This document shows positions 11,854 through 20,457 of a stretch of DNA of 22,958 nucleotides, piece by piece. The first letter of the stretch is position 1, and each line of letters starts with the position of its first letter. Source of the stretch: a virus; the IMG/VR virus record IMGVR_UViG_3300029309_000365, positions 1-22,958 of that record; one strand, written 5' to 3'. Position numbers and translations under genes: made by a program. The notes beneath the pieces were generated by a model, which searched no databases, was not told the origin of the DNA, and saw only the letters and a program-made list of their open reading frames with translations.

Positions 11854-13479
11854 TTATCCAATACTTGCTGATTCTATAATATTTCTATCTAATGCTTGTG
11901 CTGTACTTACTTCATCTGACACTACAAATGCCTTTACTGGTTGTTGTTGTTGCCCTGCTATTGTTTCTGCTAATTGGTTTTCAGGTGCTTGTCCAACTAC
12001 ATTAAATGCAGGTGGTGTACTAGCAATTGTTGGTGCTGATACGCTTGGCGTACTACCACCAGTAGCACCCATTTGACTAGCTGACTGTTTTGCTTTTGCT
12101 ACAGCTTGTATCATACTTTTAGCAGTCATTGCTGCTTGTGCAACTGCTATTGCCGCAGGTATTGCATTTAAAGGTGGTGGTGCTGATGCAAATGCTTTAC
12201 CAATACCTTTAACACCATCTGCCGCTGCTTCTGTTGAACTCATACTTACTTTAGCTATCGCAGCTTTAGCATTAGCTATTTGTTCTTTTAAAATTAATGA
12301 CTGTTTAGCTAAAAATAATGCTTTACCTATTGCTGTTTCTGCACCTACTAATTCAGTAAATAAATCAAAGGTTTGATTTCTTGCATTTCTAATCGCTTCT
12401 TCATTAGCTATTGTTTCTTCTGCTTTTGTTTTTTCTAAATCAATACCCTCTTGTATTAATGAATTTTCATTTGTTAATTGTTCTGACCTAAACCCTGCAA
12501 CAGTTGCCCTAACATCTGCCATTTCCATTTCAGCATTAATTAAAGCTATTCTATTTTCTTCATTGTCATTTAATTCTTTATTAGCTTTTGCCGCATCAAG
12601 TGTAGCTTGTGCATTAGCTAACATTAATTTTTCTTGTTCATCTAATACTTCACCTAACCTTTTATTCGCTGCAATTCTATCTTCTATACTAGCTGAGGTA
12701 TCATCTCTTAGTTGCCTTTGTTTCTCAGCTTGTAAATCAAATTGTTGTAATAGCAAAGCGTTTTGTGCTTCAGCTACCCTTGCTGATTTATTAACCTCAG
12801 TTTGTGCTTTAGCTTGTTTTATTATTTCTGATGTATAACCTTTTGTAGCTTTTATTATTTTACTTGTAGTGTTTGCAACTTTATCTACAGAATTATCAAC
12901 ACCAGTTAAAATATCAACACTTTCCTTACCTGCTTGTTTTACATCTTCTAATGCACCTGTAAAATCACCTGAAAAAACTTTTTTAACAGCACTAGCTAAA
13001 AAACCTAAAGTGTCAAGTAAACTATTAAACCTTTCTGTTATATTGTCTTTTATAGACTGCCCAAAATCTTTTAATGAACCAACTGGGTCTTCAAATATAG
13101 CCTTAAAAAAATTCACTATATTTTGCCCTTGACCTATTACTAAATTAATAAAATCATTAAAAGCAATATTTAGTGCATTATTTGCAGTTGTAAAAAAATC
13201 AATAGCTGTTTGATTTCTTGTAAGTACATCAGCTAATTTAGCAAATGCCGCAACAGCTAAACCAATACCTGCTTTTTTTAGTGCATTACCAAAACCAGTA
13301 ACAGCTTTACCAACACCTCTAAAACCTTTACCAAGTGTATTAGTAAACTTATTACCTTTTTGTTGTGTTTGTGTTATTTCTTTATTAGTAGCTTTTAGCT
13401 TTTTATTTAAACCCTCAACTGATTTTAAAGCCTGACCTGTTGCTAAATCTAATTCTGCTTGTATTACTTTCTTTGCCAT
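11854..13479 (-). CDS. Tail tape-measure protein (541 aa)
   Basis: The protein is almost wholly helical. A basic, Gln/Lys-rich N-terminus (LNKKLKATNKEITQTQQKGNKF) leads to a hydrophobic segment (about residues 66-85, AGIGLAVAAFAKLADVL). Long coiled coils follow (about 215-360, including QAEKQRQLRDDTSASIEDRIAANKRLGEVLDEQEKL). The Ala-rich C-terminal region has the 'GKAFASAPPPLNAIPAAIAVAQAAMTAKSM' pattern found in tape-measure proteins of Bacteroidota phages, then a low-complexity end (GGSTPSVSAPTIASTPPAF, QQQQ). In siphophages the tape measure sets tail length at about 1.5 angstrom per residue; 541 residues would mean a short tail of about 80 nm (inference). It starts inside the end of a 48-aa gene. 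Unusually, the two large tail proteins precede it in transcription order. Confidence 0.75.
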   Translation of the reverse strand: MAKKVIQAELDLATGQALKSVEGLNKKLKATNKEITQTQQKGNKFTNTLGKGFRGVGKAVTGFGNALKKAGIGLAVAAFAKLADVLTRNQTAIDFFTTANNALNIAFNDFINLVIGQGQNIVNFFKAIFEDPVGSLKDFGQSIKDNITERFNSLLDTLGFLASAVKKVFSGDFTGALEDVKQAGKESVDILTGVDNSVDKVANTTSKIIKATKGYTSEIIKQAKAQTEVNKSARVAEAQNALLLQQFDLQAEKQRQLRDDTSASIEDRIAANKRLGEVLDEQEKLMLANAQATLDAAKANKELNDNEENRIALINAEMEMADVRATVAGFRSEQLTNENSLIQEGIDLEKTKAEETIANEEAIRNARNQTFDLFTELVGAETAIGKALFLAKQSLILKEQIANAKAAIAKVSMSSTEAAADGVKGIGKAFASAPPPLNAIPAAIAVAQAAMTAKSMIQAVAKAKQSASQMGATGGSTPSVSAPTIASTPPAFNVVGQAPENQLAETIAGQQQQPVKAFVVSDEVSTAQALDRNIIESASIG

Positions 13480-17537: not shown

Positions 17538-18073
17538 TCAAATATATTTTTATCTTTTAAATTATTAGGTAAAAATGTTTCTAAGTCTAAGGCATAGGCA
17601 TCCTGTATTTCTTTGTCTATATTTGCAAATGCTTTTTCAAAAGGTCTAGTAAAAAACAAACTAGGCTTAATACCTTTTTGATAAATTGACCTTGCAATAA
17701 TAAATGCCATACTTTTGTAACTCATAAACCTACCTGTTTCATCATCTAGCCATTGAAATCTTTTTCTTTGAATCCATTTTAATATACCATCTCTAAGCCC
17801 ACCTCTTTTACCTGTACCAGTGCCAAATTGAAAAGGGCTAGTTCTATTGTTTATTGAACTACCTGCACCCTTAACACCTTGGTCTACAAATGAACCATAA
17901 GGTGCTATAAACCATTTTACCCTGATTGAGTTAGGCATTTCTTTTGCAACATAAGAAAGGCTTTTATATAAATTACCACCTGCTTTTTTTTGCCTAGTCA
18001 AATTACTTCTACTAGCCTTTATTACATTTTTGGCAAACCTGTTTAGTATAGTTTGTACATTTTTTAGTTGCAT
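17534..18073 (-). CDS. Tail completion / HK97 gp10-like protein (179 aa)
   Basis: The N-terminal helix (QLKNVQTILNRFAKNVIKASRSNLTRQKKAGGNLYKSLSY, about residues 2-42) and the central VKWFIAPYGSFVDQGVKGAG (about 54-73) match the HK97 gp10 / tail-completion fold. There, a 'hxxxAxYaxxVExG'-like strand follows a helix with a 'GxLxxSh' motif (here GGNLYKSL). It continues with FQFGTGTGKRGGLRDGILKWIQRK and SMAFIIARSIYQKGIKPSLFFTRPFEKAF, the latter resembling the 'hAhxIARxIhxxGIKPxxFFxxP' ending of such proteins. It would sit at the head-tail junction or at the end of the tail tube. It overlaps its upstream neighbour by 10 bases and its downstream neighbour by 4. Confidence 0.65.
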   Translation of the reverse strand: MQLKNVQTILNRFAKNVIKASRSNLTRQKKAGGNLYKSLSYVAKEMPNSIRVKWFIAPYGSFVDQGVKGAGSSINNRTSPFQFGTGTGKRGGLRDGILKWIQRKRFQWLDDETGRFMSYKSMAFIIARSIYQKGIKPSLFFTRPFEKAFANIDKEIQDAYALDLETFLPNNLKDKNIFE

Positions 18074-18537
18074 ATGTCTATGTCATTTGGTATTAAAATA
18101 TCCATTGTCAAAGCCCATCCACTAACAGCATTTTCAAATCTATCTACAAAAGGTTCACAAGTTGGGTTACCATCTAATTGGTATAGGTTTCTGTTTAGTG
18201 TACCCTTTCTTAATATTTGTACTAATTTATTTTGTACTGCTAATTGTGTATTGAGTACATCGTGTTCATTATTATTACCCCTAAATTGGTCTGTAGTTTC
18301 TGATTTAGATATATCTACTACATCCATACTTATAACACTAATAGAAAATCTAACAAGGTTTTCTTCTAGGTTTGCACTGTTTACTATTATATGTGATAGT
18401 GGGTATATAGTAGCCTTGTTTAAATCTACATCTGTAATATCACCTGTAGTTACTGTATTTACATTTGGGTCTAATAATAATTGTGATTCTATTTGTTCTG
18501 TTATTAAATAAAATCCCCTTGCACCTTTGTTAGCCAT
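18064..18537 (-). CDS. Putative tail terminator-like protein (157 aa)
   Basis: The protein (MANKGARGFYLITEQIESQLLLDPNVNTVTTGDITDVDLNKATIYPLSHIIVNSA) has a helix followed by a beta-rich core. It contains FSISVISMDVVDISKSETTDQFRGNNNEHDVLNTQLAVQNKLVQIL (about residues 65-110) and ends YQLDGNPTCEPFVDRFENAVSGWALTMDILIPNDIDIC. This sequence is highly typical of a conserved family in flavobacterial and marine Bacteroidota phages. The size and alpha-beta layout fit a tail terminator (lambda gpU-like) role, with a neighbouring completion protein and tail chaperone, but the assignment is by context rather than by a named domain. Its ATG lies inside the last codons of the frameshifted chaperone extension, an 8-base overlap that suggests coupling to the longer product. 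Confidence 0.6.
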   Translation of the reverse strand: MANKGARGFYLITEQIESQLLLDPNVNTVTTGDITDVDLNKATIYPLSHIIVNSANLEENLVRFSISVISMDVVDISKSETTDQFRGNNNEHDVLNTQLAVQNKLVQILRKGTLNRNLYQLDGNPTCEPFVDRFENAVSGWALTMDILIPNDIDICN

Positions 18538-19269
18538 TTTGTTTTTTCTTTATATTTTTCATCTCTAATATATTTTTTTCTTTTTCAAACATCAGAAAAT
18601 TTAAACATTTATGCACATTTAATTTAGTGATATTTTCAAGTTGTCTAATATCCCCCTTAGATAACCCATATATGCTGGAGTACCATCCCCATCTAACTCC
18701 GAATTGATGTACTGCACTAACTGATGTTCCTGTTTCTCCGTTAAATAAGTTATCATAGTTTGTGACAAGTCGTTTCCTAAATGATAAAAAAAAAGTATAG
18801 AACCCATTACTGCATCCATTGGCATATGTAATAAATTATCATCTATCTTGGCTTCATATTCTTTTATGTTGTACAGGTCTTTATCTTGTGTTTCTATAGG
18901 TCTATACAGCACTGACATCGCCTTGTGCATATTATCCCAACTTTGCAGGTATGTGTCTAAGTCTACATATTCACCAAAAGACATTTCATCAAGGTTAGGT
19001 ATAAAACCATACCTTATACCCCTTACTCTTATAACTCTTTGCAGGTCAGTTTTTTCAGTCATCATTGCTTTTAGTATTTCAACTATAGCATAAGCATCAT
19101 TTACTTTTAGACCTTTTACAATTTCAGGTGAAACATTACAAAATATTTCTATCATTTTAGTGGCTAGTACATTTTCATCTTCTGTTGAATCCTGTACTTT
19201 TAAGAACCTTTGATACTGATGTAATGTAACATCTTCTAAACCTTGTGGCACTTCTATATCAATCTTCAT
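18530..19269 (-). CDS. Tail assembly chaperone, long -1 frameshift product (gpGT-like, 246 aa)
   Basis: Translation starts at 19269 and, after codon 161, can slip back one base at T TTT TTT (18793-18787). The -1 frame stays open for 85 codons to TAA at 18532-18530. The new segment begins LSFRKRLVTNYDNLFNG and holds FGVRWGWYSSIYGLSKGDIR (fusion residues about 190-209) and LNVHKCLNFLMFEKEKN (about 217-233). The 'WGWYxxIYxLxxGDIxxhxxhTxLxhxxCLxhLxFEKxK' pattern is typical of the T part of tail-assembly chaperones. There is no ATG in the -1 frame until deep inside this block, so it needs the upstream start. By analogy with lambda G/GT, the rare long form would bind the tape measure while the short form coats it. 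A homopolymer sequencing error is the main alternative. Confidence 0.75.
18619..19269 (-). CDS. Tail assembly chaperone, short form (gpG-like, 216 aa)
   Basis: Without slippage the frame ends at 18621-18619 after 216 residues. Recognisable family features are MKIDIEVPQGLEDVTLHQYQRFLKV (residues 1-25), EIFCNVSPEIVKGLKVNDAYAIVEILKAM, and IRYGFIPNLDEMSFGEYVDLDTYLQSWDNMHKAMSVLYRP (about 84-123). The MPMDAVMGSILFFYHLGNDL segment (about 148-167) spans the slip site. Proteins of this type are encoded in tail modules of Bacteroidota phages. The start is supported by the CGTTATAT element and ATGAAG. In this phage the gene directly follows the large terminase, 27 bases away, rather than directly preceding the tape measure as in lambda-like phages. 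Confidence 0.7.
   Translation of the reverse strand: MKIDIEVPQGLEDVTLHQYQRFLKVQDSTEDENVLATKMIEIFCNVSPEIVKGLKVNDAYAIVEILKAMMTEKTDLQRVIRVRGIRYGFIPNLDEMSFGEYVDLDTYLQSWDNMHKAMSVLYRPIETQDKDLYNIKEYEAKIDDNLLHMPMDAVMGSILFFYHLGNDLSQTMITYLTEKQEHQLVQYINSELDGDGTPAYMGYLRGILDNLKISLN
18787..18793 (-). promoter_or_regulatory. -1 ribosomal frameshift slippery site, T TTT TTT
   Basis: In the chaperone frame the codons are CTT TTT TTT TAT, a run of nine T residues (18794-18786) that contains the canonical X XXY YYZ heptamer as T TTT TTT. The -1 frame has a TAA upstream (before 18837), so the overlap window where a shift is productive is short and includes this site. A 7-bp inverted repeat (18787-18781 with 18756-18750) begins right at the site, too close for a standard stimulatory stem. 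Confidence 0.75.
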
Positions 19270-19296: not shown

Positions 19297-20457
19297 TTAT
19301 TGAATAGCATATTTTCCAAAATTTGGTTTGCTTAGTATATTAAAGGTAGCGTATCTAAGGGAATCTAACAAATGGTTATGTTTGTCTATAGGTATGTTAG
19401 TAAGTTTACCTGTTTTATCTTCACTCCATTTATAGTTTCTAAATTCTTGTATTAGGTTTTTGCTATTAGGTGTTACATATAATTTATACCTTTTAAGTAA
19501 ATCTATACCTGCAATAATACTATCCCTGCCTTTTACAGTTGGTCTAATATTCCAACCTGTTCTTCTTAGATAGTCATTAAGTCTTGGTTCACTACTATCA
19601 CTATATATTATTTTATCACCCACATTAAGTATTTTAAAATGTGAATGTATGTCCTCAGCAGTCATCATAGTTTTGTAAAGGTGTTCTTCTACATATAAGT
19701 TATGTCCTTTTTTATATACTGAAATATGTGCAGTTGGGTCATTGGTATATCCATAGTCTACACCCATAGATAAAAACTCAGCATCTTCAGGTATGTTGCT
19801 TTCTCGATAGCTAAATATAGTTGATTTACTTATACCTTTTTGCCCTAGCCCATATATCTGCCAATATTGTGGGTCAGTTTCTTTTAGCCTTTCTATTTCT
19901 TTTATAAGGGCTTGTTCTAAAAATGTATTGTCTTTGTAAGTTGTAATATAAAAATCAGCATCATCTCTAGTTATAACTTTGTCATATATCCAACTGTATT
20001 CATCAGATGGGTTATAATCTATTATTATTTTTTCATTAGTTCTAAATAACAATTGTTGCCAGTCCTCAAAATAAAGTTCATTAGCTTCATTGATAAATAA
20101 TACATCTCTTTTTCTACCCCTTACTTTTTGTGGCTCATCTAAACTTATAAATTCTACAAGATTGTTGTATAAATTATATTCGCTTGATGATTTATTGTGA
20201 TTTATTTCATTATACATTTTATGTGTTTTAAGTATATCAAAAAAATCACGCATTACAGTTGCTCTTAAACTGGGAAAACTTTTGCGACAAATTGTAATTA
20301 TTTTACCTGTGTTTTGTGTGCAATAACTAAATATTATCCATAATAATATATTATACGTTTTTCCAGAACGTGTACCGCCTTGCTCAACTATAATTTTTTT
20401 TTGGCTTTTTAAAAGGTGTTTAAAAACTACATTAGTCTTTATTTTCATTTTTTTCAA
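19297..20457 (-). CDS. terL: Terminase large subunit (386 aa)
   Basis: The large terminase is the DNA-packaging motor and headful/cos nuclease. The ATPase part has a Walker A motif GGTRSGKT (residues 27-34), an adenine-binding-like region before it (KKIIVEQ), and Walker B with catalytic Glu in DVLFINEA (118-125). A coupling segment IIIDYNPS follows (144-151). The nuclease part has the RNase H-like acidic residues D234 (GVDYG), D287 (IIYSDSSE) and D365 (NHLLDSLRY). The order and spacing fit PBSX-type (Terminase_3/6) enzymes. The start MKKMK at 20457 overlaps the small subunit by 26 bases; an ATG nine bases further in is equally possible. No intein or insertion is visible, and the length is normal to slightly short. 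Confidence 0.92.
   Translation of the reverse strand: MKKMKIKTNVVFKHLLKSQKKIIVEQGGTRSGKTYNILLWIIFSYCTQNTGKIITICRKSFPSLRATVMRDFFDILKTHKMYNEINHNKSSSEYNLYNNLVEFISLDEPQKVRGRKRDVLFINEANELYFEDWQQLLFRTNEKIIIDYNPSDEYSWIYDKVITRDDADFYITTYKDNTFLEQALIKEIERLKETDPQYWQIYGLGQKGISKSTIFSYRESNIPEDAEFLSMGVDYGYTNDPTAHISVYKKGHNLYVEEHLYKTMMTAEDIHSHFKILNVGDKIIYSDSSEPRLNDYLRRTGWNIRPTVKGRDSIIAGIDLLKRYKLYVTPNSKNLIQEFRNYKWSEDKTGKLTNIPIDKHNHLLDSLRYATFNILSKPNFGKYAIQ

Follow-up and report, generated by a model that had tools for sequence, protein, structure and literature searches.

The window (the whole 22,958-base IMG/VR record IMGVR_UViG_3300029309_000365, in which nearly all genes lie on the minus strand) contains a gene that probably gives rise to two proteins from one start, by slippage on a run of nine T residues, and that probably serves as a tail assembly chaperone pair. 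Standard decoding would produce G, a protein of 216 residues (18619..19269, minus strand), of which 161 precede the slip and 55 lie beyond it. Slippage on the T9 run (18786..18794, minus strand) would lead into the -1 frame, where an 85-residue segment named T (85 codons and a stop; 18530..18787, minus strand) replaces the last 55 residues of G and gives the fusion GT (161 + 85 = 246 residues). Comparison of related sequences gives strong support to a programmed -1 transition by which the protein gains a conserved C-terminal segment. Its molecular cause is a separate question and is considered below.

The layout was recomputed from the sequence, and everything that the original prediction had said about the letters proved correct. 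In the sense orientation the run reads CTT TTT TTT TAT in the codons of G, and the T_TTT_TTT heptamer on which the original prediction was based is present in frame at 18793-18787. An open -1 frame extends from 18836 to the stop at 18532-18530, and both the 85-codon length counted from the slip and the 246-residue fusion are as predicted. It was also correctly stated that the segment has no start before its last third: the earliest candidate is a GTG at 18616, codon 58 of 85, and no ATG, GTG or TTG occurs earlier. The next gene (157 residues; 18064..18537, minus strand; phrog_30964, unknown function) begins, as had been noticed, within the final T codons with an ATG at 18537, and in the relatives an ATGA overlap is usual at this place. 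The terminase large subunit gene terL (19297..20457, minus strand; Pfam Terminase_3, 1.7e-21) lies directly upstream of G. An A9 run is found in the sense of terL near its 5' end (20394-20402 of the window).

Relatives were gathered by scanning viral contigs and GTDB genomes, which yielded over 300 loci. The whole set comprises 369 related loci, which fall into about 168 clusters; 333 of the loci have both parts readable and were reduced to 158 representatives at 90% nucleotide identity. In every one of the 333 readable loci T is encoded in frame -1 relative to G, with a junction of T9 (275) or T10 (58), and 35 further relatives carry T9-T11 in another register. Altogether, 368/369 related loci combine an unbroken stretch of 9-11 T with a T segment in the -1 frame downstream of it. 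An in-frame T_TTT_TTT is present in 99/99 and 158/158 members of two non-redundant sets, which is trivial for runs of at least nine. The alignment of relatives therefore bore out the prediction, as the run and both frames are kept and no readable locus lacks a homologue of the -1 segment.

The only isolates found in the set are the Nonlabens phages P12024S and P12024L. Their genes 38+39 and 40+41 (phrog_32199 and phrog_38404) show the same G, the same T9 context and the same -1 T frame as the window, but their 0-frame tail is only 25 codons long. They are annotated as two hypothetical proteins each, namely G (gene 38/40) and the last 55 T codons (gene 39/41). In bacterial genomes the G/T pair was detected in several flavobacterial MAG contigs and on a 320-kb scaffold of the cultivable Flagellimonas onchidii XY-359 (L175, NZ_SRXX01000003.1). 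The location on so long a scaffold suggests that the Flagellimonas onchidii locus is a prophage.

A nine-base homopolymer is a typical site of sequencing error, and the two frames could in principle be an artefact of sequencing or assembly that hides a single 246-residue frame. One relative, L383 (278-306), has T8 and a G-T frame relation that is off by one base; this is probably a homopolymer or assembly indel in that contig. However, the same frame relation is found in 368/369 contigs, from independent metagenomes, two isolate genomes and the Flagellimonas onchidii genome, and contigs both nearly identical to and distant from the window independently carry the same run. Selection moreover acts on the 0-frame tail past the run as well. 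The conservation of the run and of the frame relation refutes an assembly error, and the chance that one underlies the two frames is negligible.

T behaves as a protein-coding segment. Its length varies little among relatives (81-91 codons), while the 0-frame tail ranges from 25 to 88. The T alignment contains an invariant F-R-x-R, Y, F, WGW and L, and conserved residues can be followed down to 23% identity; in the window the corresponding stretches include F-R-x-R, KWGWYSSIY, GD and FEKEKN. The pattern WGWYSSIY...GD had been called typical of T segments of tail chaperones. Its conservation was borne out, but none of the searches made returned a similarity to a known T domain. When the 0-frame protein was fixed and synonymous codons were redrawn, only 0.5% of trials per sequence left the overlap free of -1 stops. 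In several relatives, L007 and L052 among them, the -1 frame is closed by a stop just 2-8 nt ahead of the run, and conserved F-R codons appear a few nucleotides past it, which places the frame switch in the run itself.

These data also bear on the idea that T is a separate small gene, expressed by re-initiation or from an internal start. This is how P12024S and P12024L are annotated, with the last 55 T codons as a gene of their own. Yet only 3/158 representatives have an ATG among T codons 1-35, for which reason an independent T start was rejected, and conserved T residues are already found 1-3 codons past the run. A gene of its own would also need neither the run nor a fixed frame. A separate T gene is very improbable, and T is best regarded as an extension of G.

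Codon-phase and open-frame tests suggest that the roughly 55 codons past the run (18619..18786, minus strand) are both read and selected in the two frames. When T was fixed and its codons were redrawn, on average just 0.9% of trials kept the 0-frame open over the length seen in the real sequences. Differences at third codon positions of T were at 0.173 in the overlap, against 0.260 in T after the G stop and 0.328 in G upstream of the run. It is from these trials and from the lowered third-position differences that selection on both frames is concluded. The third frame is closed early, with a +1-frame stop 0-7 codons after the run in 167/168 clusters. A nearly invariant TTTAGG (18776..18781, minus strand) encodes FR in the -1 frame and LG in the 0-frame and provides a stop (TAG) in the +1 frame. 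It was considered as a separate nucleotide signal and rejected as such, because its conservation is explained by the joint coding of FR and LG.

Uninterrupted counterparts of the two-frame gene were detected in siphophages of Duneviridae and Helgolandviridae. The G+T profile aligns end to end with single-frame proteins of 259-301 residues from these families (hhalign E 1.8e-8, columns 4-241 of 250), and G alone aligns over less of them. T alone against the Duneviridae C-terminus was not significant (E 0.54), and the 157-residue gene following T showed no detectable homology to the Duneviridae gene that follows the GT-like protein. Flavobacterium phage 23T gp10, laban6-1 gp017, Cellulophaga phage Ingeline gp05 and Polaribacter phage Leef gp02 all resemble G+T over their entire length, and since each is one uninterrupted frame, no frame switch takes place in them. 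Flavobacterium phage 6H was tried as a second case of frameshifting and dropped because its relatives 23T and laban6-1 are single-frame. The 6H gp10 has 191 residues, while the near-identical gene of 23T encodes 293 in one frame (L335, NC_021867.1, 9586-10927; L341, NC_041859.1). The shorter 6H gene is therefore probably due to sequence indels, or else to a real disruption.

The identity of the protein is supported by its architecture, its siphovirus context and remote similarity, from which G/GT is probably a tail assembly chaperone pair. The original prediction had named it a tail assembly chaperone; the two-frame layout agrees with that, but no Pfam, PDB or PHROG match names a chaperone. 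G matches phrog_32199 (unknown function) and the Flagellimonas T matches phrog_38404, while searches of Pfam and PDB sequences, and of PDB folds with G, returned no match. A fold search with G against BFVD gave 39 matches below 1e-3. Most of these are proteins without a name from uncultured phages, and Flavobacterium phage 6H is among them; the matches annotated as chaperones were found only at E 0.13-0.37. The AlphaFold model of T alone is poor (pLDDT 64).

The site belongs to the structural module of a tailed phage. It adjoins terL and lies about 5 kb from the gene of a probable tape measure protein (541 residues; 11854..13479, minus strand; phrog_3336, tail length tape measure, 4.2e-7; phrog_21537, virion structural, 1.9e-25). 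The order terL - G/T - ... - tape measure differs from the usual order of tube, chaperone and tape measure. Both the proximity to terL, at a distance from the probable tape measure gene, and the lack of an annotated chaperone among the strong fold and family matches would fit a real pair of slip products with another role, such as a neck or connector protein that also has a longer, minor form. Against this speak the frame-shifted two-product layout in a tailed-phage structural module and the weak fold matches to proteins annotated as chaperones. In addition, the co-linear single-frame relative in Ingeline_1 is located three genes upstream of the tape measure gene. A role other than that of a tail assembly chaperone is unlikely, and for a chaperone pair the expected picture would be a common G and a rarer GT, with GT bringing the tube protein to the tape measure.

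The established precedent, which the prediction had invoked, is gpG/gpGT of phage lambda. There too one start gives two products, of which the minor one carries a -1-encoded T segment, and the gene lies among siphovirus tail genes. The parallel holds for the layout. No sequence similarity to the lambda proteins was detected, and the flavophage pair is set apart by its slip site, a long and drifting T9-T11 run rather than a short heptamer, and by a 0-frame that stays under selection for about 55 codons after the slip. The slip itself is possibly made by RNA polymerase. In the E/E+E' tail genes of P2, an enterobacterial myovirus, a T-rich slippery heptamer is combined with a long -1 overlap. P2 thus shares the T-rich slip site and the long overlap with the flavophages, but its site is a heptamer whereas theirs is a conserved run of at least nine.

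Two mechanisms of slippage have to be weighed. If RNA polymerase slips on the 9-11 T, a fraction of transcripts would receive an added U and would be translated into GT. Alternatively, the ribosome would perform classical -1 programmed frameshifting on T_TTT_TTT and the extra T residues would be incidental; this concerns the polymerase step only and leaves the two products untouched. Frameshifts in tail chaperone genes are well established and those described so far were reviewed as ribosomal (PMC5009743, PMC3711429, PMC10885494). Every intact relative has the in-frame heptamer, and as any T9 always contains one, a site for ribosomal slippage is always at hand.

The length of the run is more than a heptamer needs. 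It is at least nine T in all but one of the 168 clusters, while a heptamer takes seven. Two patterns of relatives were sought in the viral collection: a heptamer not followed by a T, and a T8 run. The first brought up 35 relatives among its matches, in all of which additional T residues on the opposite side lengthen the run to T9-T11; the T8 pattern yielded one relative, L383. The 3' T was lost in 15 intact clusters, which corresponds to about five changes on the G tree, and each time except in L383 the run was held at nine or more. A 5' extension is present in 15/15 clusters that lost the 3' T and in 8/152 of the others (Fisher 6e-16, uncorrected for relatedness). Such retention of at least nine T with a drifting phase argues against a purely ribosomal site. 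Part of it may be explained otherwise: hydrophobic residues encoded in the two frames account in part for the T residues on either side of the heptamer, which fits the ribosomal mechanism, and a preference for three aromatic residues at the protein level could mimic the rule on run length.

Long T runs are rare elsewhere in these phages. The count covered 1,364 other ORFs of the related loci (1.09 Mb), with the expectation taken from codon shuffles, and agreed with an earlier count on 710 ORFs. Five runs of nine or more T were found, of which four were G genes, leaving one real run against 19.1 expected; T8 runs numbered 14 against 52.5. In coding regions of the related loci long T runs are therefore strongly depleted from T8 up, whatever their codon phase. 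T7 runs with an in-frame heptamer (100 observed, 158 expected; 0.63) were not scarcer than those without one (34 and 62; 0.55), so the in-frame heptamer is not specifically avoided in other coding regions, which speaks against a ribosomal site. The avoidance of long T runs could also reflect instability during replication. Runs of A9 and longer are likewise below expectation in related phages. In bacteria, selection against slippage commonly becomes visible at a run length of nine nucleotides (PMC1088944).

Window folding of 50 relatives gave no signal of a downstream stimulatory RNA structure (mean z about 0; pseudoknot-free folding), and on inspection of the codon table no Shine-Dalgarno-like element stood out. 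U_UUU_UUU is also a much weaker -1 site in E. coli than A_AAA_AAG (PMC5009743). Genes with known transcriptional slippage, such as Thermus dnaX (A9), Shigella spa13 and those of IS elements (PMC1088944, PMC5009743), similarly rely on a homopolymer of about nine or more, independent of phase, with a nearby stop in the unwanted frame, and in spa13 a C-terminal extension is encoded in another frame, as in the flavophage G/T.

Because the run is kept at nine or more, its phase drifts, long runs are avoided and no structure was detected, slippage by RNA polymerase is the most likely mechanism, with a probability slightly better than even. Ribosomal slippage is a serious alternative that falls somewhat below even, and both may contribute. 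In a literature search that covered few subscription papers, no tail chaperone with transcriptional slippage and no report on this phage group were found.

According to these results, a protein encoded by hundreds of uncultivated phages of flavobacteria is currently overlooked, and phrog_32199 and phrog_38404, both of unknown function, would be the two halves of one product. For selection on two frames at once, the 55-codon dual-coded overlap is an unusually strong example. It is tentatively proposed, with chances a little short of even, that flavobacterial tailed phages of a large lineage control the ratio of their tail chaperone products by polymerase slippage on T9-T11 instead of ribosomal frameshifting, followed by about 55 dual-selected codons. 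If polymerase slippage is true, control of the ratio of a phage tail chaperone would lie at the level of RNA; the literature searched describes no such route for this class of genes.
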